From NCBI RefSeq assembly GCF_040546585.1, contig NZ_JBEPOC010000001.1, positions 3,534,001 through 3,598,000 of the forward strand: 64,000 nt of DNA, in the 5' to 3' direction. A program made the translations under genes and the position numbers. This DNA comes from Marmoricola sp. OAE513. Its GTDB lineage: Bacteria > Actinomycetota > Actinomycetes > Propionibacteriales > Nocardioidaceae. This document shows positions 8,493 through 36,770 of the stretch, piece by piece (positions within the stretch are counted from its first letter, which is position 1; every line of letters starts with the position of its first letter). The notes below the pieces were generated by a model. That model was not told the origin of the DNA. It did no database searches and saw only the letters and a list, made by a program, of their open reading frames with translations.

Positions 8493-9592
8493 CGCCCACC
8501 CCGCTCTCGACCACGCGCTGACCCGCGGCCGGCTCTCGGCCCGGGCCCGCGTGGCCCGTCTGCGCTCGAAGTCCTGGCAGGTCGGCCAGTGCGCGATCGC
8601 GGCCGGGGTCGCCTGGTTCGTCGCGGCCGACCTGGTCGGTCACACCCAGCCGTTCTTCGCGCCGATCGCCGCGGTCGTCAGCCTCGGTACGTCGTACGGG
8701 CAGCGGTTGCGGCGGGTCGCCGAGGTGACCCTCGGCGTCGCCATCGGGGTGTTCCTCGGCGACGCCCTGACGCACCTGCTCGGTTCGGGCGGCTGGCAGA
8801 TCGCCTTGATCGTGAGCCTGGCGATGGTCTCGGCTCTGCTGCTGGACGCCGGTGCGATCTTCGTGACCCAGGCAGCCGTCCAGGCGATCGTGGTGAGCAC
8901 GCTGGTCCCGGACCCGGGCCAGGCGTTCCTGCGCTGGAGCGACGCCCTGATCGGGAGGGGTGGCCCTGGTGGCCGCGACCGTCGTGCCGCGGGCGCCGCT
9001 GCGGCGGCCACGGGAACAGGCCTCGGTCGTCGTCCGCAAGATCTCCGGGCTGCTGCGCGACTCGGCCGACCGGATCGAGGACGGTGACGTCGATCGGGCG
9101 ATGGACACGCTCGCCGACGCGCGCTCCACCGACGCGCTGATCGCGGAGCTGCGCGCTGCGGCCGACGAGGGCCTCTCGGTGCTCGCCTCCTCACCGTTCC
9201 GCTGGCGTCACCGCGACGGCGTACGCCGGATGGTCGACCTGGTCGAGCCGCTGGACTTCGCGCTGCGCAACACCCGGGTCGTCGCCCGCCGTGTCGCCGT
9301 CGCCTGCTACCGGCACGAGCCCATCCCGCAGGGCTACGCGGTGTTCCTGCGTGACCTGGCCGGTGCGACCGACGCCCTGGCCGGCGAGCTCAGGGCGAAC
9401 CGGATGGCGGTCAGCATGCAGGAGCCGCTGATCGCGCTCGGCCGGCACAGCTCGGAGCTCGAGCGCACCGCGGTGCTGTCGGCCGAGGTGGTGCTGGCCA
9501 GCGTGCGGTCGATGATCGCGGACCTGCTGGCGGTCAGCGGGATGGATCCGCTCGAGGCGACCGACCAGATCCCGCCGATCGCCGGTGGTTGA
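8476..9592 (+). pseudogene. FUSC/aromatic-acid-exporter-like membrane protein, interrupted by a +1 frameshift
   Basis: The N-terminal part (frame of 8476) has four hydrophobic helices and runs correctly to DPGQAFLRWSDALIG. The rest continues in another frame from about 8960, beginning VALVAATVVPRAPLRRPR. The join is a G-run (8957-8960): removing one G restores a single ~371-residue frame reading ALIGRVALVAATVVP, as expected for the last helix of this half-size FUSC/ArAE-type protein followed by a helical cytoplasmic domain. Either the sequence has one extra G or the gene is recently broken. The stop codon TGA (9590-9592) lies inside the downstream GGTGGTTGAG repeat. The family is implicated in export of aromatic acids; no substrate can be read here. 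Confidence 0.8.
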
Positions 9593-9655
9593 GCATGCTT
9601 CCGGTGGTTGAGCCTCCCGGTGGTTGGGCCTCCGGGTGGTTGAGCCTGACGAAAC
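9582..9655. repeat. Four tandem CCGGTGGTTGAGC units plus CGAAACC end: degenerate dispersed repeat
   Basis: CCGGTGGTTGAGC or near copies start at 9582, 9601, 9617 and about 9632, followed by GACGAAACC. The outer motifs GGTGGTTGAG and CGAAACC are the two ends of the longer repeat at 15329-15389, so this looks like a rearranged copy of the same dispersed element. It lies between convergent genes and provides the stop codon of the FUSC-like gene. Confidence 0.6.
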
Positions 9656-10792: not shown

Positions 10793-11488
10793 ATGAGATG
10801 CGTGACGACAGACTGGATCACCGCGTTCCTCGACGTCCCCGCGTCGCGCCACGACGTGGCCGCCTCGTTCTGGTGCGGCGTGACCGGCGCGACGATGTCG
10901 CGCGCCAGGGGAGCCGACGAGGAGTTCTCCACCTTCCTGCCGCCGGACGGAGCGGCGTACCTGCGGTTGCAGCGCATCGCCTCCGGGCCCGCGGGCGTGC
11001 ACGTGGACCTGCACGCGGCCGACGGCACGTGGGTCCCGGGCCGGTCGCCCGCGGGTCTGCCGTTCTGCCTCAACGAGGGCGAGACGGAGACCCGTCCGCT
11101 CCCGCGGATCTGGGCCTCGGGGCACACCAGCCTGGTCGACCAGGTGACGATCGACATCCCGGCGCCGGCGTACGACGAGGAGTGCGCGTTCTGGGCCGAG
11201 CAGACCGGCTGGGAGCTGCGCGACGGGTCACGTCCGGAGTTCCGCTACCTGGTGCGACCCGACGCGATGCCGTTGCGGATCCTGCTCCAGCGGCTCGACG
11301 AGAGCGAGGGACCCGCGCGGGCCCACCTCGACATCGCCACCAGCGACCGGGCCGCGGAGACCGAGCGGCACCGCACCCTCGGCGCGCGGGTGGAGACCAC
11401 CCGCCACCACTGGACGGTGCTGCGCGACCCCGCCGGCGCGCTCTACTGCATCACCGACCGCGACCCGTACACGGGCCAGCTGGGATAG
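10793..11488 (+). CDS. VOC-superfamily (glyoxalase/bleomycin-resistance fold) protein
   Basis: 231 residues with two VOC modules: residues 1-110 (ITAFLDVPASRHDVAASFW ... VHVDLHA) and 115-231 (DQVTIDIPAPAYDEECAFW ... LRDPAGALYCITDRDP). The phrases VHVDLHA and AHLDIATSD occupy the usual metal/substrate strand positions, and WTVLRDPAG is a common VOC ending. The function could be antibiotic binding, isomerisation or dioxygenation; nothing singles one out. GTG 10802 is an alternative start three codons in. Convergent with the DUF402 gene; both stop codons lie in one hairpin. Confidence 0.78.
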   Translation: MRCVTTDWITAFLDVPASRHDVAASFWCGVTGATMSRARGADEEFSTFLPPDGAAYLRLQRIASGPAGVHVDLHAADGTWVPGRSPAGLPFCLNEGETETRPLPRIWASGHTSLVDQVTIDIPAPAYDEECAFWAEQTGWELRDGSRPEFRYLVRPDAMPLRILLQRLDESEGPARAHLDIATSDRAAETERHRTLGARVETTRHHWTVLRDPAGALYCITDRDPYTGQLG

Positions 11489-11544
11489 TCCCCACCTGAG
11501 GACACCATTCCGAGAGCGCGCGTGGTGCTCCCCGGTGGGGACTA
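11486..11544. terminator. Bidirectional hairpin whose arms contain both convergent stop codons
   Basis: TAGTCCCCACC (11486-11496) and GGTGGGGACTA (11534-11544) are perfect 11-bp inverted arms. The left arm begins with the TAG stop of the VOC gene and the right arm ends with the complementary TAG stop of the DUF402 gene. The loop is 37 nt. Its position between convergent genes fits a two-way terminator, although no T-run follows. Confidence 0.6.
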
Positions 11545-12091: not shown

Positions 12092-12262
12092 GCCGACCCG
12101 GCACCGATGTGCCTCCGAACCGTGCCGACCCGGCAGCGATGTGCCTTCCAACCGCGCCGACCTGGCACCAATGTGCCTTCCAACCGCGCCGACCTGGCAC
12201 CAATGTGTGCACATCGCTGCCAGGTCGGCGTTCAGGGCTGGCACATCCCTGCCAGGTCAGCG
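12092..12262. repeat. Repeat array A: 32-bp-period units, 4 direct then 2 inverted
   Basis: Direct units begin at 12092, 12124, 12156 and 12188, exactly 32 bp apart, with core GCCGACCYGGCA followed by SC(G/A)ATGTGCC and a TTCCAACCGC-type linker. Inverted units start at 12209 and 12241, again 32 bp apart. Direct unit 4 and the first inverted unit form a ~21-bp hairpin with few mismatches (12187-12230). The last inverted copy overlaps the TGA stop of the SDR gene (12257-12259). The array separates two same-strand genes. It shares period, dyad layout and core pattern (GCCGA-N9-GATGT) with arrays at 23288 and 35459. Function unknown. Confidence 0.9.
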
Positions 12263-13090
12263 CTTCTTCTTGGGGACGACGCGCGGGCTGCCCCAGGCCA
12301 CGAAGTCCTGGTAGCGCGAGCCGGCGAGCTTCGCGGCGTGGTGGATGATGTGCGCGTCGATGCCGACGAGCACGCGCGCCTGCTTCTTCTTGGTGCCGTC
12401 GAGAATGATCCTCGCGGCCTTCTCTGCGGTCATCCGGGCGAGCTTCTTGTCGAAGAGCTCGTCGAGCTTCGCGCCGTCCTGGCTGGCGGTCTTGCGGCCG
12501 TTGCGGGAGATGCCGGTCTTGATGCCGCCCGGGTGCACGCAGGTCACCGAGACGTTGTGCTTGTTGATCAGCATCTCCTCGCGGAGCGCCTCGGTGAAGC
12601 CGCGCACGGCGTACTTGGTGGCGTTGTAGGCGGTCTGGCCGGGCATGGAGATCAGACCGAAGAGGCTGGAGATGTTCACCAGCGCGCCGTCGCCCGAGGC
12701 GATCAGGTGCGGCAGGAACTCCTTGGTGCCGTTGACGACGCCGTTGAAGTTGACCCCGACGATCCAGTCGAAGTCCTCGTACGACATCTCCTCGAAGTCG
12801 CCCGTGACGGTGACGCCGGCGTTGTTGACCACGACGTTCACGCGCCCGAACTGCTCGGCGACCGCCGTGGCCCAGGTGCCCATCGCGGCGCGGTCGGAGA
12901 CGTCGATGACGTCGCTGCGGACCTCGGCGCCGATCTCCTTGACCAGGTCGACGGTCTCGGCGAGCGACTCGGCGTTCCAGTCGGAGATGGCGAGCAGTGC
13001 CCCCTCGCGGGCGGCGTACAGAGCCATCTCGCGACCCATGCCTCCGCCGGCACCGGTGATGACGACGACCTTGTCCTCGAAAGACTTCAT
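12257..13090 (-). CDS. Short-chain dehydrogenase/reductase (SDR family)
   Basis: 277 residues. TGAGGGMG (12-19) is the NAD(P)-binding turn, NNAG is at 89-92, catalytic Ser141 lies in NISSLFG, and Tyr155-x3-Lys159 in AYNATK. A basic KKKR tail ends the protein. The ATG overlaps the TGA of the upstream monooxygenase by four bases (ATGA), so the two are translationally coupled. Pairing of a flavin monooxygenase with an SDR suggests sequential oxidation of a ketone/alcohol substrate, which is inference. The downstream stop codon lies inside repeat array A. Confidence 0.92.
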   Translation of the reverse strand: MKSFEDKVVVITGAGGGMGREMALYAAREGALLAISDWNAESLAETVDLVKEIGAEVRSDVIDVSDRAAMGTWATAVAEQFGRVNVVVNNAGVTVTGDFEEMSYEDFDWIVGVNFNGVVNGTKEFLPHLIASGDGALVNISSLFGLISMPGQTAYNATKYAVRGFTEALREEMLINKHNVSVTCVHPGGIKTGISRNGRKTASQDGAKLDELFDKKLARMTAEKAARIILDGTKKKQARVLVGIDAHIIHHAAKLAGSRYQDFVAWGSPRVVPKKKR

Positions 13091-19543: not shown

Positions 19544-22500
19544 GTGCGCATCCATTTCCCTGCCGAGCTCCCGGTCTCGGCCCGCCGTGGCGACATCGCC
19601 GTCGCCGTCCGGGACCACCAGGTGGTCATCGTCGCGGGGGAGACCGGCTCGGGGAAGACGACCCAGCTGCCGAAGATCTGTCTCGAGCTCGGCCGCGGCG
19701 TCGGGGGCCGTGACGGCAAGCTGATCGGGCACACGCAACCGCGACGCATCGCCGCGCGCAGCGTGGCCGAGCGGATCGCCGATGAGCTCGGGACCGATCT
19801 CGGTGACGTGATCGGCTACCAGGTGCGGTTCACCGACAAGACCTCGTCGGCCGGGCGGGTGAAGGTGATGACCGACGGCATCCTGCTCGCCGAGCTGCAG
19901 CACGACCGCGACCTGCAGCGCTACGACACGATCATCATCGACGAGGCTCACGAGCGGAGCCTCAACATCGACTTCATCCTCGGGTACCTCAAGCGGTTGC
20001 TGCCGCGACGCCCGGACCTCAAGGTGATCATCACCTCGGCCACCATCGACCCCGAACGGTTCGCCGAGCACTTCGCGGCGGCGGACGGTACGCCGGCGCC
20101 GATCATCGAGGTCTCCGGCCGCACCTACCCGGTCGAGATCCGCTACCGGCCGCTGGTCGAGCAGCAGGAGGAAGACGAGGACGGCGAGGTCGTGGTCCGC
20201 GACCAGACCGAGGCCATCGTCGCGGCCGTCGACGAGCTCCGGGCCGAGATCGACGGCGACATCCTCGTGTTCCTCCCCGGCGAGCGCGAGATCCGCGACA
20301 CCGAGGACGTCCTGCGCAAGCGCTCGGAGGGCCCGCGCGGGTTCGACGTCGTACCGCTGTACTCCCGGCTGTCGGCTGCTGAGCAGCACCGCGTCTTCGA
20401 GCGGCACTCGCGGCGCCGGGTAGTCCTGGCCACCAACGTGGCGGAGACGTCGCTGACCGTTCCGGGCATCACCGCCGTGATCGACACCGGCGTGGCCCGG
20501 ATCAGCCGCTACTCGGTGCGCACCAAGGTGCAGCGCCTGCCGATCGAGCCGATCAGCCAGGCCTCGGCCAACCAGCGGTCGGGGCGCTGCGGTCGCGTCG
20601 AGGCCGGCATCGCGATCCGGTTGTACTCCGAGGAGGACTTTGAGAGCCGTCCCGAGTTCACCGAGCCGGAGATCCTGCGCACGACGCTGGCGAGCGTCAT
20701 CCTGCAGATGACCTCGCTCGGCCTCGGCGACGTCGGACGGTTCCCGTTCGTCGAGCCGCCGGACCCGCGCAACGTCCGCGCCGGCAAGACGCTGCTGGAG
20801 GAGCTCGGCGCGATCTCGGCCGGTTCGGGTCGCGATTCCCGGCCCCGGCTGACCCGCGTCGGCCGCGCCCTCGCCCGGCTGCCGATCGATCCGCAGCTGG
20901 GCCGGATGCTGCTCGAGGCCGACCGCCTCGGGTGCCTGCGCGACGTGCTGGTGATCGCGTCGGCGCTCTCGATCCAGGACCCGCGAGAACGTCCCGTGGA
21001 CGCGCAGGCGAAGGCGGACGAGAAGCACAGCCGCTTCCGCGACCAGCGCTCGGACTTCATGGCGTGGTTGAACCTGTGGGACCACCTCCGGGAGAACCAG
21101 AAGGCTCTGGGGTCCAGCGCGTTCCGACGGATGTGCCGTTCGGAGTACCTCAACTACGTCCGGGTCCGGGAGTGGCAGGATTTCGAGAGCCAGCTGCGCC
21201 AGGTCGCCAAGCAGGTCGGTCTGAAGGTCGGCAAGCCCTCCGAGCCGGGGGTGCACGCCGAGGACCAGATCCACCAGGCGCTGCTCACCGGGTTGCTGTC
21301 GCACATCGGCCTGCGCGACGCCGACCGGCGCGACTACCTCGGCGCGCGGGGCACCCGGTTCTCGGTCTTCCCGGGATCGGGGCTGTTCAAGAAGCAGCCC
21401 GACTTCATCATCGCCGCCGAGCTCGTCGAGACCTCCCGGCTCTGGGGGCGGCAGTGTGCAGCGGTCGACCCGCTCTGGGTCGAGCGGGCAGCGGCGCACC
21501 TGGTCTCCCGCACGTGGTCGGAGCCGCACTGGTCGAAGAAGCGCGCTGCGGTGATGGCCCACGAGCGGGTCACCCTGTACGGCGTCCCGCTGGTCGCCGA
21601 CCGGTTGATCAACTACGGCAAGCACGACCAGGCGCTGGCGCGTGAGCTGTTCCTGCGGCACGCGCTGGTCTACGGCGAGTGGCACTCGCGGCACCGCTTC
21701 CTGGCGACCAACCGCGAGCTGCTCGAGCAGGCCGAGGAGCTCGAGCACCGGGCACGGCGCCGCGACCTGGTCGTCGACGAGCACACGCTCTTCGACTTCT
21801 ACGACGCCCGCGTCCCGGCAGACGTCGTCTCGGGCGCGCACTTCGACGGGTGGTGGAAGCAGGCGCGCCGCGAGAACCCGGACCTGCTGACCTTCGACCC
21901 GGCGATGCTGCTGCACGAGACGGCCGCCGAGGTCACCGCGCGCGACTTCCCCGACCTGTGGCAGGAGGGGGCGACGGAGTTCCCGCTGGCCTACCACTTC
22001 GAGCCGGGATCGGCACAGGACGGGGTCCGGATCGACGTACCGCTGGCGACCCTGAACCACCTCGGAGCCGGTGCGTTCAGCTGGCACGTTCCCGGGTTGC
22101 GCGAGGAGCTCGTGATCGCGCTGCTCCGGTCGCTGCCGAAGGCCCTGCGGGTGAACTTCGTGCCGGCGCCGAACGTGGCCAAGGGGTTCCTCGCTGCCGT
22201 CCCGCCAGGGGAGGAGGCGCTGACCGACGCCCTGACCCGGCACCTGCGTGCTCTCACCGGCGTCGCGGTGCCTGCCGAGGCGTGGGACTGGGAGAAGGTG
22301 CCCGAGCACCTGAAGCCGTCGTTCCGGATCGTCGACGAGAGCGGGGCCGTGCTGGGTGAGGGCAAGGACCTGGAGGCGCTGAAGCGTCCGCTGCGGGCGT
22401 CCTTCGACGAGGCGATGGCGGGAGCGGCCGCCGAGTCGGGGATGACCGCCACCGGACAGCGGAGCTGGACCTTCGGGACCATCGAGCCCTCGTTCCGCCA

Positions 22501-23287
22501 GGTCCGCGCCGGCCACGAGGTCCGCGGGTTCCCGGCACTGGTCGACGAGGGCACGACGGTGGGTCTCCAGGTGTTCGCCACCGAGGCCGAGCAGGAAGCG
22601 CAGCACCTGCGCGGCGTACGGCGGCTGCTGATGCTCGCGATCCCGGCACCCGACCTCGAGGTCGGCCTGGACAACGTCACCAAGCTGACGCTCGCCAGCT
22701 CGCCGTACCCCAACGTGAAGGCGTTGCTGGCCGACTGCGTGCTGGCCGCGTTCGGCGACCTGACCGAACCGGTGCGCGACGAGGCTGCCTTCGACGCGCT
22801 CGTCTCCCGGGTGCGCGCCGTCGTGGCCGACCAGGCGCTGGGAGTGCGCGGTCTGGTGCTCCGGATCCTCACCGAGGCCCGGGAGACCGACAAGCTGCTG
22901 CACGGTCGGGTCGACATGGCGGTGCTCGCGTCGATGAACGACATGCGTCAGCACTACGGCCGCCTGCTGGCCCCCGGCTTTGTGAGCGAGGCCGGGACCA
23001 CTCAGCTGCGCGAGGTCCCGCGCTACCTGGCCGCACTCAACGAGCGGTACCGGCGGTTGCCCGAGTCACCGGCCAAGGATCTCGAGCGGATGTCGCGGGT
23101 CGCGGAATTCCAGAACGGGCTCGAGCAGCGGCTCGCCGCGCTCCCGCCGGGGCGTCCGCCGGGTCTCGCGCTGGAGCGCCTGCGCTGGCTCATCGAGGAG
23201 TACCGGGTCTCGCTGTGGGCCCAGCAGCTCGGCACCAAGCAGACCGTCTCCGACACCCGTCTGCGCGCCGCCATGAACGACACCTAG
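19544..23287 (+). CDS. hrpA: ATP-dependent RNA helicase HrpA
   Basis: 1247 residues from GTG 19544. DEAH helicase core: Walker A GETGSGKTT (32-40), motif Ia QPRRIAA, motif II DEAH (IIIDEAHERSLNIDF), motif III SATID, motif V ATNVAETSLTVPGI and motif VI QRSGRCGR. These are followed by the ratchet/OB-fold region and a long C-terminal HrpA-specific extension (~600 residues). The length and order match bacterial HrpA, which unwinds mRNA and resolves stalled ribosomes. Monocistronic, with a hairpin upstream and repeat array B starting immediately after the TAG stop. Confidence 0.94.
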   Translation: MRIHFPAELPVSARRGDIAVAVRDHQVVIVAGETGSGKTTQLPKICLELGRGVGGRDGKLIGHTQPRRIAARSVAERIADELGTDLGDVIGYQVRFTDKTSSAGRVKVMTDGILLAELQHDRDLQRYDTIIIDEAHERSLNIDFILGYLKRLLPRRPDLKVIITSATIDPERFAEHFAAADGTPAPIIEVSGRTYPVEIRYRPLVEQQEEDEDGEVVVRDQTEAIVAAVDELRAEIDGDILVFLPGEREIRDTEDVLRKRSEGPRGFDVVPLYSRLSAAEQHRVFERHSRRRVVLATNVAETSLTVPGITAVIDTGVARISRYSVRTKVQRLPIEPISQASANQRSGRCGRVEAGIAIRLYSEEDFESRPEFTEPEILRTTLASVILQMTSLGLGDVGRFPFVEPPDPRNVRAGKTLLEELGAISAGSGRDSRPRLTRVGRALARLPIDPQLGRMLLEADRLGCLRDVLVIASALSIQDPRERPVDAQAKADEKHSRFRDQRSDFMAWLNLWDHLRENQKALGSSAFRRMCRSEYLNYVRVREWQDFESQLRQVAKQVGLKVGKPSEPGVHAEDQIHQALLTGLLSHIGLRDADRRDYLGARGTRFSVFPGSGLFKKQPDFIIAAELVETSRLWGRQCAAVDPLWVERAAAHLVSRTWSEPHWSKKRAAVMAHERVTLYGVPLVADRLINYGKHDQALARELFLRHALVYGEWHSRHRFLATNRELLEQAEELEHRARRRDLVVDEHTLFDFYDARVPADVVSGAHFDGWWKQARRENPDLLTFDPAMLLHETAAEVTARDFPDLWQEGATEFPLAYHFEPGSAQDGVRIDVPLATLNHLGAGAFSWHVPGLREELVIALLRSLPKALRVNFVPAPNVAKGFLAAVPPGEEALTDALTRHLRALTGVAVPAEAWDWEKVPEHLKPSFRIVDESGAVLGEGKDLEALKRPLRASFDEAMAGAAAESGMTATGQRSWTFGTIEPSFRQVRAGHEVRGFPALVDEGTTVGLQVFATEAEQEAQHLRGVRRLLMLAIPAPDLEVGLDNVTKLTLASSPYPNVKALLADCVLAAFGDLTEPVRDEAAFDALVSRVRAVVADQALGVRGLVLRILTEARETDKLLHGRVDMAVLASMNDMRQHYGRLLAPGFVSEAGTTQLREVPRYLAALNERYRRLPESPAKDLERMSRVAEFQNGLEQRLAALPPGRPPGLALERLRWLIEEYRVSLWAQQLGTKQTVSDTRLRAAMNDT

Positions 23288-23605
23288 GCCGAGAGGTCAC
23301 AGATGTCCCGCCCGCGGTCGCCGAGAGGTCTCAGATGTCCCGTCCGCGGTCGCCGAGAGGTCTCAGATGTCCCGTCCGCGGTCGCCGAGAGGTCTCAGAT
23401 GTCCCGCCCGCGGTCGCCGAGAGGTCTCAGATGTCCCGCCCGCGGTCGCCGAGAGGTCTCAGACGTCTCGCGGGCGGACTCGAGTCCGTACATGCGTGAC
23501 CTCTCGACGCGTTGACGTGAGGCACCCGGGCCCTCTCGGCCCACTGAGGTGGGACATCTGGGCCCTCTCGGCGCACTGAGGTGGGACATCTGGGCCCTCT
23601 CGGCG
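23288..23605. repeat. Repeat array B: 32-bp-period units, 6 direct then 4 inverted
   Basis: Direct units start at 23288, 23320, 23352, 23384, 23416 and 23448 (the last degenerate), each GCCGAGAGGTC(A/T)CA then GATGTCCCG and a CCCGCGGTC linker. Inverted units carry CTCTCG at 23501, 23533, 23565 and 23597, again exactly 32 bp apart, with a different linker (CCACTGAGGT). The centre of the dyad holds a 14-bp palindrome CGGACTCGAGTCCG (23474-23487). Fills the entire gap between hrpA and the convergent PemK-like gene. 32 is not a multiple of 3, so it is unlikely to be coding. No CRISPR-like unique spacers. Confidence 0.93.
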
Positions 23606-23614
23606 TCGGGTGGG

Positions 23615-23974
23615 TCAGCGGTAGCGCCGGCTCGCGCGCAGCACCTCGTCGAACAGGGCGGCGTCGAGCTCGGCGCCGTTGCGGCGCACGTCGTAGATGC
23701 TCACGGTCAGGACCCGGTTGAGCTGGACCTCGCTGCTGCGGTCCTGCCGGTCCCAGGCACCGGCGCCGAGATCCATCCAGACCTGGTTGCGGCGCTGCTG
23801 GTCGGTCCGGCTGCGCAGTGGGAGCGCCGTCAGCCGGGCGCCGTCGACGGCGAGCACGAGGACCGGACGGTCCTTGCCCTCGCGCGAGCCCTCCTCGAAC
23901 GGGACCCAGGTCCAGACGACCTCACCCGGGTACGGGCGACCGTCGACGGCCGGGTTGTACGGCGGCCGGGTCAG
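23615..23974 (-). CDS. PemK/MazF-like protein, second copy, probable CTG start
   Basis: Frame of ~119 residues clearly paralogous to the upstream gene: shared PGEVVWTWVPFEE / PGEVCWAWVPFEE, GKDRPVLV, W-DRQ-SEVQLNRVL. No ATG/GTG/TTG exists in frame before this homologous start region. The first usable codon is CTG at 23974, which overlaps the upstream TGA as CTGA, mimicking the usual ATGA coupling. From the first GTG (23857) the protein would lose the whole N-terminal strand, so CTG initiation or reinitiation is the best reading. MazF/PemK proteins are usually mRNA interferases. No antitoxin is adjacent, so toxicity is doubtful. Confidence 0.7.
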   Translation of the reverse strand: MTRPPYNPAVDGRPYPGEVVWTWVPFEEGSREGKDRPVLVLAVDGARLTALPLRSRTDQQRRNQVWMDLGAGAWDRQDRSSEVQLNRVLTVSIYDVRRNGAELDAALFDEVLRASRRYR

Positions 23975-24417
23975 GACGTCGCCTCGGGCAGGTACGGCGT
24001 CGCCGCCGCGATGACGGCGTCGAAGATCGGGCGCGGCAGCGCACCGCCCTCACGCCGTACGGTCTTCACGTCGAGCTGGAGAACGCGGTTGAGGCGGACC
24101 TCGCTCGGGCGGCGCTGCCGGTCCCAGTCGCCGGTCCCGATGTCCATCCAGAAGCGGCCCTCGCGGGCCTGGTGGTCGGCGTCGCGGTCGTGGTCCTTGC
24201 TGGTCAGCGGCAACGCGATCACGGTGCTCCCGTAGATCGCGATCACCAGCACCGGCCGGTCCTTGCCCTGGCTGGCGTCCTCCTCGAAGGGCACCCACGC
24301 CCAGCAGACCTCGCCCGGGTCCGGGCGACCGTTGCGGCGTGGTGCGTAGGTCGTCGTGAGGCGTGGCGTGCGCCGAGCCAGGCTGCGCCGGAAGAACTGC
24401 ACGATGCGTGATGCCAT
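23971..24417 (-). CDS. PemK/MazF-like toxin-fold protein
   Basis: 148 residues. A basic N-terminal extension (RIVQFFRRSLARR) is followed by a PemK/MazF-like domain: PGEVCWAWVPFEED as the first strand (normally P-G-x-(V/I)-x-x-V), GKDRPVLVIAIYGSTVIALPL as the strand pair lining the active site, and PSEVRLNRVLQLD matching the conserved S-x-V-x-x-x-x-(I/L) segment. TAGCGT 7 nt before the ATG makes it leaderless. Tandem with the second copy; neither has an upstream antitoxin ORF, and the upstream 196 bp hold no gene. It may be a housekeeping homologue rather than a toxin. Confidence 0.75.
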   Translation of the reverse strand: MASRIVQFFRRSLARRTPRLTTTYAPRRNGRPDPGEVCWAWVPFEEDASQGKDRPVLVIAIYGSTVIALPLTSKDHDRDADHQAREGRFWMDIGTGDWDRQRRPSEVRLNRVLQLDVKTVRREGGALPRPIFDAVIAAATPYLPEATS

Positions 24418-34232: not shown

Positions 34233-35456
34233 ATGGCTCGCACATCTCGGATCGCCCGGCTCTCGATCGCTGCAGCTGCAGGCGCCGTCATCCTCGCCGG
34301 CAGCGTCTCGTCGTACGCCGCCGAACCCACCGACCAGGCCGCGGCCGGAGGGTGGGTCTACTTCGGCGCCGACAACGGGTCGACCGGGTGCGAGCTGTTC
34401 CGGACCAACGGCTCGACGACCGAGCTGGTCAAGGACATCATCACCGGCACGGAACCCGGCTACCCCGCGCAGCCGGCGGCCCTGGGCTCCAAGGTCGTGT
34501 TCGGCGCGAGCGACGGCGTCCACGGCAAGGAGCCCTGGGTCTCCGACGGCACCGACGCCGGGACCTTCATGCTCAAGGACGTTCGGCTGGGGTCCGGGTG
34601 GAGCAACGCGGGTGGCTTCTACACCTGGCAGGGCAAGACCTACTTCCGGGCCAACGACGGCAGCCACGGCCGCGAGCTCTGGGTGACCAACGGCACGCCC
34701 GGTGGCACGAAGCTGGTCAAGGACATTCTTCCGGGCTCGGCAGGAAGCGAGCCGGCGTTCTTCGCGGGCATGGGCAACAAGGTCTACTTCGCCGCGAACA
34801 AGGACCTGTGGGTCAGCGACGGCACCACGGCGGGCACGAAGAAGGTGAAGGACCTGAACTCCAAGGGCACTTGGGGGATCACGGGTCTCGGCAAGAAGAT
34901 CGTCTTCACGGCCTCGGCCAAGGGCAAGGGTCGCGAGCTCTGGGTGTCCACCGGGACCAAGAAGGGCACCAAGCTGCTCAAGGACATTCGCAAGGGCTCG
35001 AAGGGCAGCGACCCCGAGCAGGGCGCACGCGTCGGCAAGAAGGTGGTGTTCAGCGCGTACGACAAGTCCCACGGTCGCGAGCTTTGGGTCACCAACGGCA
35101 CCAAGAAGGGCACCAAGCTCCTCAAGGACCTGAAGAAGGGCAAGAAGAGCGCCAACGCCGGGGTGTTCTCCGCGGCAGGCTCGAAGGCGTACTTCGTGGC
35201 CGACGGCGGCAGCAACGTCTACACCGTGTGGAAGACGAACGGTACGAAGGCCGGGACCAGCAAGGTCGCGTCCTTCAACCGCGGCGGCAGCTACGACTAC
35301 CCCGAGTCCTTCGCGACCGCGGGCGCCGTCACCTACTTCCAGGCGTGGAGCGGCAGCACGCTGAAGGAGCAGGTCTGGCGCACCAACGGAACCGCGGCCG
35401 GTACGACGCGGGTCACCTCGATCCCCGGCGGTGTCAGCGACTGCGGGAGCAACTGA
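34233..35456 (+). CDS. Secreted ELWVxxGTxxGT-repeat protein (beta-propeller-like)
   Basis: 407 residues from ATG 34233 (AGAAGG upstream). Signal peptide ~1-30 with cleavage after SSYAA. The mature part is about seven copies of a ~45-residue unit built around (R)ELWV(T/S)NGT-x2-GTK-LL-KD followed by G-KVVF-A-D, e.g. at about residues 100, 147, 190, 228, 272 and 325. Such ELWxxxGTxxGT repeats are found in extracellular hyalin/propeller-like proteins of unknown function. Lys-rich units in the C-terminal half differ from the acidic N-terminal units. Array C begins two bases after the stop. Confidence 0.8.
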   Translation: MARTSRIARLSIAAAAGAVILAGSVSSYAAEPTDQAAAGGWVYFGADNGSTGCELFRTNGSTTELVKDIITGTEPGYPAQPAALGSKVVFGASDGVHGKEPWVSDGTDAGTFMLKDVRLGSGWSNAGGFYTWQGKTYFRANDGSHGRELWVTNGTPGGTKLVKDILPGSAGSEPAFFAGMGNKVYFAANKDLWVSDGTTAGTKKVKDLNSKGTWGITGLGKKIVFTASAKGKGRELWVSTGTKKGTKLLKDIRKGSKGSDPEQGARVGKKVVFSAYDKSHGRELWVTNGTKKGTKLLKDLKKGKKSANAGVFSAAGSKAYFVADGGSNVYTVWKTNGTKAGTSKVASFNRGGSYDYPESFATAGAVTYFQAWSGSTLKEQVWRTNGTAAGTTRVTSIPGGVSDCGSN

Positions 35457-35458
35457 CT

Positions 35459-35669
35459 CCCGAGAGGTCACAGATGTCCCACCCCCGTACGGCGAGAGGT
35501 CACAGATGACCCGCTCCCGTACGGCGAGAGGTCACAGATGTCTCACTGAAGTGCGCCGAGAGGGCGCTGATGTCGCACCCGGTGCGACATCAGCGCCCTC
35601 TCGATGCGTGTGACCGAGACATCTCGGACCTCTCGGCGTTCCGGGGCGGGACATCTGTGACCTCTCGGC
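35459..35669. repeat. Repeat array C: 32-bp-period units, 4 direct then 3 inverted, with a 47-bp perfect palindrome
   Basis: CGAGAGG of the direct units lies at 35461, 35493, 35525 and 35557; CTCTCG of the inverted units at 35598, 35630 and 35662. Both series are exactly 32 bp apart. Core GAGAGGTCACA then GATGTCCC matches array B, but the linkers (ACCCCCGTACGG) differ. Direct unit 4 and inverted unit 1 together form a perfect 47-bp palindrome (35557-35603, 23-bp arms, 1-nt centre). The array fills the gap between the repeat-protein gene and the primase-polymerase gene, ending 8 bp before the latter's -10. Confidence 0.93.
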
Positions 35670-35690: not shown

Positions 35691-36770
35691 ATGGCTACGC
35701 CCGCTGCTGAGGTCCTCGCCGGTGACCGTGCTGTCCGGGTCTCGAGCCCCGACCGGGTGATCTACCCGGGGACGGAGTCGACGCCGGAGGTCACCAAGCT
35801 GATGGTCGCGCAGTACTTCTGCGACGTCGGCGACGGCCTGATGCGCGCGCTCGGTGACCGCCCGACGGCGTTGGAGCGGTGGCCCAAGGGCGTGCTGCCG
35901 GGCATCAAGCTCGGCACCGGCCGGCCGGGGGAGAAGTCGGACGCGTTCTACCAGAAGCGGGTGCCGATGGGCGCGCCCGACTACCTCGAGGACTGCGAGA
36001 TCACATTTCCCTCGGGTCGGACCGCGAAGGAGGTCTGCCCGACCGAGATCGCCGTGCCGGTGTGGTGCGCGCAGATGGGCACGCTCACCTTCCACCCGTG
36101 GCCCGTACGCCGCTCCGACGTCGACAAGCCGGACGAGCTGCGCATCGACCTCGACCCCCAACCCGGTACGTCGTTCAGCGACGCCGTCCGTGTCGCCGGC
36201 GTCGCCAAGGAGCTGCTCGAGGACCTCGGGATCGTGGGGTTCCCGAAGACCTCGGGCAGCCGGGGCGTGCACATCTACGTGCGGATCGAGCCACGCTGGG
36301 ACTTCGTCGACGTCCGCCACGCCGCGATCGCCTTCGGGCGCGAGCTGGAGAAGCGGGACGACGGTGTCACGACCGCCTGGTGGAAGGAGGAGCGCGGCGA
36401 GCGCATCTTCGTCGACTTCAACCAGAACTCCCGCGACCGCACGATCGCCTCTGCGTACTCGCTGCGGCCGATCCCCGGCGCCCCGGTCTCCACGCCGATG
36501 ACCTGGGACGAGCTGGCCGGCGTCACCGACCCGAAGGTCTACAACCTGTTCACCGTCCCCGACCGACTGGCCGACGGCGACCCGTGGGCCGCGATCGACG
36601 ACGTCGCTTGCTCGTTGCAGCCGCTGCTGGACGCGTTCGAGGAGCAGGGCGCCGTCGAGCTCAACTACCCGCCGGACTACCCGAAAATGCCTGGCGAGCC
36701 GCCGCGGGTGCAGCCGAGCAAGAAGGTCGCCGAGCACTGGGACGACGAAGGCAACCGGATCGACGGCTGA
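35691..36770 (+). CDS. LigD-polymerase-like primase-polymerase (Prim-PolC type)
   Basis: 359 residues, a stand-alone AEP-family polymerase domain as in LigD. The catalytic acidic pair is Asp153/Asp155 in RIDLDPQPG, and SGSRGVHIYV (188-197) is the S-x-G-x-x-x-H-I-Y motif. The third acid lies near VDFNQNSRDRT, with DRTIASAYSLRP following. It fills short gaps with ribonucleotides in end-joining or excision repair. In mycobacteria a Prim-PolC gene sits directly beside ligC. Here the ligase is 1.9 kb away on the other strand and no Ku gene is present, which favours excision repair over classical NHEJ (inference). Confidence 0.9.
   Translation: MATPAAEVLAGDRAVRVSSPDRVIYPGTESTPEVTKLMVAQYFCDVGDGLMRALGDRPTALERWPKGVLPGIKLGTGRPGEKSDAFYQKRVPMGAPDYLEDCEITFPSGRTAKEVCPTEIAVPVWCAQMGTLTFHPWPVRRSDVDKPDELRIDLDPQPGTSFSDAVRVAGVAKELLEDLGIVGFPKTSGSRGVHIYVRIEPRWDFVDVRHAAIAFGRELEKRDDGVTTAWWKEERGERIFVDFNQNSRDRTIASAYSLRPIPGAPVSTPMTWDELAGVTDPKVYNLFTVPDRLADGDPWAAIDDVACSLQPLLDAFEEQGAVELNYPPDYPKMPGEPPRVQPSKKVAEHWDDEGNRIDG

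Follow-up and report, generated by a model that had tools for sequence, protein, structure and literature searches.

Phased 32 bp repeat arrays in Marmoricola sp. OAE513 and a predicted AbiEi–nuclease fusion gene framed by repeats of the same family

Three arrays of short repeats in the window (the whole 64,000 nt stretch of Marmoricola sp. OAE513 DNA that was analysed) belong to a dispersed repeat family, and units of the same family frame a gene for an AbiEi-like protein with a nuclease-like domain. We consider that the arrays are probably helically phased binding sites for this AbiEi–nuclease fusion protein and act as its non-autonomous partners. The structure, register and placement of the arrays, and their co-location with the gene, are apparent at the sequence level. 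The association of the repeats with the nuclease gene suggests a previously undescribed kind of partnership.

Array B (23288..23605) occupies the whole of a convergent gap and is composed of six direct and four inverted units of subfamily 1 (CCGAGAGGTCNCAGATGTCCC). The direct arm (23289..23469, plus strand) holds cores that start at 23289, 23321, 23353, 23385, 23417 and 23449. The inverted arm (23487..23603, minus strand) holds cores at 23487, 23519, 23551 and 23583, which place the CTCTCG motif at 23501, 23533, 23565 and 23597. These coordinates bear out the original prediction, in which both arms were assigned an exact 32 bp register and CTCTCG was placed at the same positions. The two innermost inverted cores are degenerate, with PWM scores of 17 and 15, against 29. 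The array is preceded by a plus-strand gene (19544..23287) that we take to encode an HrpA-like helicase, the TAG stop codon of which lies one base ahead of the first core. On the other side, a short convergent reading frame (23615..23857, minus strand) without a Pfam match stops 11 bases from the array, and a PemK/MazF-like toxin gene (23971–24417, minus strand) is the next but one neighbour.

Array A (12092..12261) is of subfamily 2 (CCGACCYGGCANCRATGTGCC) and lies in the gap between two minus-strand genes, with four direct and two inverted units at 32 bp steps in each arm. The TGA stop codon of the short-chain dehydrogenase gene (12257..13090, minus strand) falls inside the outer unit of this array. 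Array C (35459..35669), of subfamily 1, has four direct and three inverted units, and its innermost pair forms a near-perfect palindrome. The gene upstream of array C (34233..35456, plus strand; no Pfam match) has its stop codon 3 bases ahead of the first core. Downstream lies a LigD primase-polymerase gene (35691..36770, plus strand), for which the ATG at 35691 was adopted as the start, against the position of 35757 given by our home-made gene caller; a sequence seen by eye between array C and this gene, TAGGGT, is presumably a −10-like box. A period of 32 was called by TRF at arrays A, B and C, which together with the core coordinates confirmed that one direct-then-inverted layout recurs at the same period in all three. 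The common core proposed earlier, GCCGA-N9-GATGT, is shared by the arrays, except that two direct units of array A carry AATGT instead of GATGT. Stray core-like matches outside the arrays, at 1357 (plus strand, PWM score 17) and 10213 (minus strand, PWM score 15), lie in coding DNA and are probably due to chance. The window also contains an unrelated-looking tandem repeat at 9582–9647 (CCGGTGGTTGAGCCTC, 3.9 copies of 16 bp), in which no likeness to the arrays is visible.

The repeat family extends well beyond the window. In the 3.89 Mb genome from which the window was taken (G000), the pattern CCGA-N3-G-N5-GATGT had 179 matches and its reversed control had 7, and two cores exactly 32 bp apart matched 77 times, against 0. 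These counts show that the arrays are not chance occurrences, and the many further copies dispose of the chance look-alikes that the original prediction had named as a possible refutation. When the window and 57 other stretches (58 sequences in all) were scanned with a PWM, 35 array segments were identified in G000 and 28 in a sister genome (G012), as well as single cores without an array at L082 and L088. Within arms, the step was 32 bp in 146 of 152 cases in G000 (31 bp in five others and 64 bp in one) and in 52 of 52 in G012. Arms contain up to seven units in G000, and the G012 arrays mostly comprise two direct and two inverted units; a centre-palindrome pattern was found at 17 places in G012 and at only 3 in G000. 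As read from the PWM, the core of ~21 bp (consensus CCGASCGGGCNCAGATGTCCC) is not palindromic and carries no GTAG or CGTC tag. The linkers had been described as variable, and about 5–7 of their middle positions are indeed near random, but the linker ends (CG... and ...ACG) are conserved.

A restriction of the arrays to two species was considered and rejected, because the patterns used at that point fixed the second half of the unit, which is species-specific in the relatives compared. The half-core CCGASCGGGC, repeated at exactly 32 bp, was present in 31 of 341 same-family genomes, and the controls gave 0 except in two genomes (1 each). The counts were 121 in G277, 76 in G003, 56 in G000, 54 in G009, 26 in G311, 21 in G008, 19 in G012 and 15 in G010, and lower in the others; single matches among the 31 genomes may be due to chance. 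Tandem cores at 32 bp were seen in all 20 stretches fetched for this comparison, and 16 of these showed both orientations, with a lone direct core after the inverted ones at L214. The 32 bp register, expected from the outset to be a conserved feature, persists in the related species searched. Likewise, a search of the whole window against Rfam at gathering score returned nothing beyond four tRNAs, in line with the earlier view that the arrays match no named repeat family.

The same gene is centred between the arms in the genome of the window (L089), in the sister genome (L127), in G003 and in G277, which represent four species and two genera. In these four species the partner protein is 314–328 aa long and 41–63 % identical to the G000 protein. 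At E≤1e-20, a search with an alignment of the four proteins found matches in 24 of 24 same-genus genomes, and one with a 21-protein alignment found matches in 28 of 30 chosen genomes of the family. We examined 47 strong homologues (25 from the same genus and 22 others, in 39 genomes) of 57 listed at E≤1e-69; ten of the 57 had no usable locus, and L241, L242 and L245 (same genus) and L267 (family) were dropped as short or cut by a contig end. For each gene, two 260 bp flanks were compared, with thresholds of at least 85 % over 20 bp for an inverted repeat and at least 75 % on one side for a tandem repeat. Inverted flanking repeats were detected in 45 of the 47 strong homologues (23/25 in the same genus and 22/22 in others), L239 and L240 being below threshold, and 40 of the 47 had tandem repeats on one flank. 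Among control genes, 3 of 249 had inverted flank repeats, and two of these three were the partner gene itself; the figure is conservative because the controls come from array-rich loci. Nine weak homologues showed inverted repeats in five cases and tandem arrays in none.

With Pfam at E≤0.1, AbiEi_4 was matched by 19, MTES_1575 by 18 and DUF559 by 11 of 21 members of the protein family, although the domain matches are weak and several fall under the curated cut-off. The AbiEi models of PADLOC matched all 21. Of the first four proteins, two matched all three Pfam models, one matched AbiEi_4 only and one (L215) matched no Pfam model. Among the 21 members, one weakly matched an IS110-type model and none matched an IS200-type Pfam model. 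Residues E207, D240, E251, H258 and D266 are invariant across the 21 sequences. No relative of the partner protein was found when the PDB was searched by sequence, and an AlphaFold model made from one sequence had a pLDDT of 31 and was not used.

The genome of the window encodes two close paralogues of the partner gene and one distant match. Units of subfamily 1, as in arrays B and C, flank the paralogue at 1347023, and those around the paralogue at 3319831 read CCGACCCGGCAGCAATGTGC, which is subfamily 2, as in array A. At the level of individual arrays, B and C each match the units of the first paralogue at 20 of 21 bp and those of the second at 15, whereas array A matches the second at 20 and the first at 17. 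Of 32 dispersed G000 segments, 26 are closer to the units of the first paralogue and 6, including array A, to those of the second. Two close paralogues are also present in G002, framed by 21 bp and 22 bp units, and both types are dispersed in that genome: by eye, the 63 listed tandem matches (control 1) comprise 23 of the first type, 27 of the second and 13 that are coding-like. The same tandem pattern, looser than the earlier ones, gave 2–34 matches in the other 23 genomes, those listed being mostly coding-like. As judged from sequence comparison, two paralogues are paired with two unit types in two species.

We then matched array segments to 14 gene-flank sets, leaving out five segments on L089 and L127. 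For G000, the set from the same species came out best or tied for best in 27 of 32 segments; for G012 this was so in 25 of 26, and for nine other species in 14 of 18. It was the sole best in 17, 16 and 11 segments, respectively, and many matches tie because the unit types are related. The matching of units to genes failed in G010 (0/3) and G068 (0/1).

The spacing of the units follows the DNA helix. Tandem identity of at least 80 % at lags of 18–49 bp was found in 60 of 94 gene flanks, which are not independent of each other, and the periods were 32 (36 flanks), 22 (10), 31 (6), 42 (3), 44 (3) and 21 (2) bp, with nothing between. These values correspond to two, three or four helical turns. The steps across array centres (leaving out L204, L206 and L214) were phased at 10.5 bp (R 0.77, n=57), also when the 26–30 bp class was removed (R 0.60, n=22, p 3e-4) and when only distinct values were counted (p 0.04); the phasing was not significant in the eight steps from other species alone (p 0.24). 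Taken together, these values show at the sequence level that the units are helically phased. Loading of a protein on a single DNA face, as suggested in the original prediction, agrees with the periods of two, three and four turns, with centre gaps that change in steps of about 10 bp and with a cognate protein from a DNA-binding family. In one report, AbiEi of Streptococcus and Rv2827c of Mycobacterium are described as binding 23 bp inverted repeats 3 or 13 bp apart (PMC7319586). Our units are of nearly the same size, and the same one-turn (10 bp) difference in spacing is seen.

We propose that each unit of ~21–23 bp would be the binding site of an AbiEi-like winged-helix domain, fused to a predicted nuclease domain of the DUF559/MTES_1575 (Vsr-like, PD-(D/E)XK) type. 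Its gene is present once or in a few distinct versions on each chromosome, flanked on both sides by inverted arrays of what would be the protein's own sites. The dispersed arrays, which have a general F^n-R^m form and include A, B and C, would be non-autonomous copies of the gene ends with the cognate site sequence. Spacing by whole turns (2, 3 or 4) would align the protein molecules on one face of the DNA, with the two arms opposed across the dyad. We infer binding, cleavage or other catalysis, and mobilization by the partner protein; nuclease activity combined with host repair would be the most likely engine by which arrays are copied or moved, and the tolerated targets would chiefly be short gaps after stop codons. 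Gene and repeats may also form a selfish or addictive partnership, with the arrays holding the nuclease in check.

The placement of the arrays was determined with gene orientations from the home-made gene caller, leaving out one G012 array at a contig end with no left gene. Of the placed segments, 16 of 35 (G000) and 15 of 27 (G012) lie in convergent gaps, whereas 33 of 207 and 16 of 115 other gaps on these stretches are convergent (Fisher p 2e-4 and 1.6e-5), and divergent gaps hold 7 of the 62 placed segments. Of 80 stop-facing edges, 59 have their outer core within −4 to +5 nt of a stop codon, and in eight cases a TGA stop codon forms part of a unit. This tight placement after stop codons was absent from the original prediction, as were the partner gene and the correspondence of two subfamilies with two paralogues, so that the first interpretation is supported in part.

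The enrichment in convergent gaps and the close fit to stop codons are what would be expected if the arrays were bidirectional terminators or mRNA 3′-end hairpins that had spread under selection for that role, and bidirectional termination was our first candidate. Predicted RNA folds of the arrays were far more stable than those of shuffled sequences (z −13.6 for array C and −8.4 for array B), an outcome expected of any inverted array, and by eye two orthologous gaps in G012 that lack an array hold ordinary long hairpins. However, a scan of 23200–23700 found no terminator-like T-tract site at array B. Units that would pair concentrically were not significantly more alike than other units (16.92 versus 16.72 of 21, p 0.20; 18.59 versus 18.29, p 0.29), and hence there is no sign of stem selection. 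Termination would also have to accommodate the segments in divergent gaps, and leaves both the 10 bp phasing and the partner gene unexplained. Given the lack of significant concentric likeness and of a T tract at array B, the array sequence looks to be kept as DNA sites. We therefore set this candidate aside as unlikely, and a 3′-end hairpin role may be a by-product. Of the four roles first suggested for the arrays (terminator, insulator, nucleoid protein site or mobile relic), a mobile, protein-bound element is favoured, with a terminator-like side effect as a possibility.

Comparison of orthologous positions pointed to rapid change. Of 17 G000 slots with a located counterpart in G012, 4 hold a 32 bp array there and 13 do not. 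Twelve of these 13 were re-measured with a tandem measure. It recognizes 11 of the 13 known G000 arrays, and may therefore overlook degenerate arrays in relatives. Conversely, a window gap without an array (11488–11542) carries one in G012, and at the shared slot L081/L108 the subfamily differs between the two genomes. Array turnover between the sister species is thus high. Orthologous gene ends were compared further by searching 16 of 28 prepared pieces, which gave 13 usable ends each in G012, G010 and G003. Arrays were present at two of the thirteen ends in G003 and at none in G010; the two G003 arrays are built from a different unit sequence that shares GAGCGGGCGATCGTCGTACGCC, and their step is again 32 bp. 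At slot L106, following a gene that we take to be relA-like, both G000 and G003 carry 32 bp arrays, and the G012 counterpart (L145) has its own 22 bp tandem; this slot is reused by a third repeat type. In G012, no array follows the orthologue of the L084 gene; the gap there (L136) reads CGCCGGTCGGC, which resembles joined outer array ends and is, as a single case, a possible excision footprint.

This turnover bears on the idea that the arrays form a regulon, or a set of nucleoid sites, across the genome for the AbiEi-like partner protein, immobile and kept for regulation. The distance from the array end to the next start codon is at least 16 nt at all 32 start-facing edges, and 16–97 nt at 27 of them; directly after the array at such edges there is often what we take, by eye, to be a TAGNNT-like box. 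AbiEi antitoxins are also described as autoregulating through repeats bound at their own promoter (PMC7319586), and inheritance of the gene mostly in place would suit a regulator. A fixed set of regulatory sites is difficult to reconcile with 4 of 17 slots shared between sister species, and the commonest location, after stop codons in convergent gaps, also argues against it. We regard a purely regulatory role as improbable.

The inheritance of the partner gene was examined at 40 loci, in 22 of which it lies between the same two neighbours. By Pfam in one copy, these are triosephosphate isomerase and OpcA, and the isomerase side is present in all 22. At this conserved locus the unit sequence and the period (22, 31 or 32 bp) vary, and the G000 and G012 copies of the gene sit elsewhere. 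Orthologous partner proteins are 36–78 % identical (mean 48 %), against 76–99 % (mean 83 %) for the isomerase fragment, indicating that the partner protein evolves fast. Across the 22 orthologues, protein distance and unit distance were uncorrelated in a Mantel test (r 0.07, p 0.20).

The gene is passed on mostly at a fixed position and is therefore no fast-moving transposon. A conventional single-gene transposon that ends in tandem repeats, with the dispersed arrays as its MITE-like remnants, has in its favour the central gene, the outer inverted arms, the small gene-free copies elsewhere and the position of the window-genome gene away from the 22-species locus. The conserved position argues against it, as does the copy number, with one to five matches listed per same-genus genome rather than many identical copies. 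The partner protein also had no match in 50,697 phage records and none that was confirmed in viral contigs, and among 72,556 plasmids there were 7 weak matches, with identities below 40 %. We consider this explanation quite improbable. Slipped-strand tandem repeats or functionless chance look-alikes have in their favour that linkers tend to resemble each other inside one array and to differ from those of other arrays, as local duplication would produce. They are already refuted by the match counts against near-zero controls and have a negligible chance of being correct in view of the common 32 bp step, the direct-then-inverted layout, the dozens of loci and the partner gene. The original prediction had also argued against slippage, from the fixed register and core, the variable body and the dyad symmetry.

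The preferred explanation, of phased binding sites that are partners of a fusion nuclease, resembles several known systems. To our knowledge, the leading case of a domesticated nuclease that maintains dispersed repeats in bacteria is the REP/RAYT system. REP, BIME and REPIN elements are described as short repeats outside genes, arranged as inverted pairs and usually located behind genes, and RAYTs (TnpA-REP) as single-copy, largely vertically inherited nuclease genes that lie beside the repeat type they serve, with three RAYTs and three repeat flavours in P. fluorescens SBW25 (PMC3116915, PMC3733652). Similarly, our arrays are extragenic, high-copy repeats in inverted pairs, mostly after genes, and a cognate nuclease-like gene is framed by its own repeat type. 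RAYTs, however, are HUH transposases that act on single-stranded REP hairpins (PMC8266576), and many are associated with a GTAG tag (PMC3733652). The partner protein described here is AbiEi-like and Vsr-like rather than HUH- or IS200-like, and the array unit is not itself a hairpin and occurs in helically phased direct runs. These differences in protein family and unit structure exclude the arrays from the REP/RAYT class.

The N-terminal AbiEi-like domain of the partner protein recalls the AbiE type IV toxin–antitoxin systems. Unlike an AbiEi antitoxin, this domain is fused to a nuclease-like domain, and unlike AbiE, there are up to seven units per arm and sites throughout the chromosome. The C-terminal DUF559/MTES_1575 match, with its invariant acidic residues and H258, resembles the Vsr-like/DUF559 PD-(D/E)XK endonucleases, and a Caulobacter DUF559 protein has been described as Vsr-like and PD-(D/E)XK (PMC12907096). 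In the titles and opening lines of abstracts of open-access papers naming DUF559, no link between this family and repeats was found. Multiple predicted binding sites in long terminal inverted repeats are shared with Galileo, for which multiple transposase binding sites are reported in such repeats (PMC3688188); Galileo differs in that it belongs to the P superfamily of Drosophila and its transposase is unrelated. A search of the open-access literature, at the level of titles and the first part of abstracts, gave no description of these repeats with such a protein.

We see an even chance that these elements represent a second, HUH-independent class of repeat–nuclease system, in which a fast-evolving and mostly in-place fusion of an antitoxin-type binder and a Vsr-like nuclease changes its site and seeds phased arrays. 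If so, an unrelated protein family would have adopted the REP/RAYT way of life, and such partnerships would arise repeatedly. The partnership, if true, would also provide a lead to the function of DUF559/AbiEi_4 proteins. The helical-turn rule (21/22, 31/32 and 42/44 bp) makes a direct prediction for assembly of the protein on DNA, and the locus common to 22 of 40 gene copies, with its differing units and periods, offers a natural series for the study of protein–DNA co-evolution.

At five fetched loci the arms surround other genes or no recognized gene: an NAD-binding dehydrogenase (L202), OsmC (L205), a YqeY-like gene (L093) and unmatched short frames (L203 and L204). The half arrays at these loci give the impression that genes became trapped between the arms. 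Lastly, the distant AbiEi/DUF559-like genes at L273–L277 are without tandem arrays and carry single inverted copies of a ~20 bp motif on both sides, an arrangement that may be the ancestral state.
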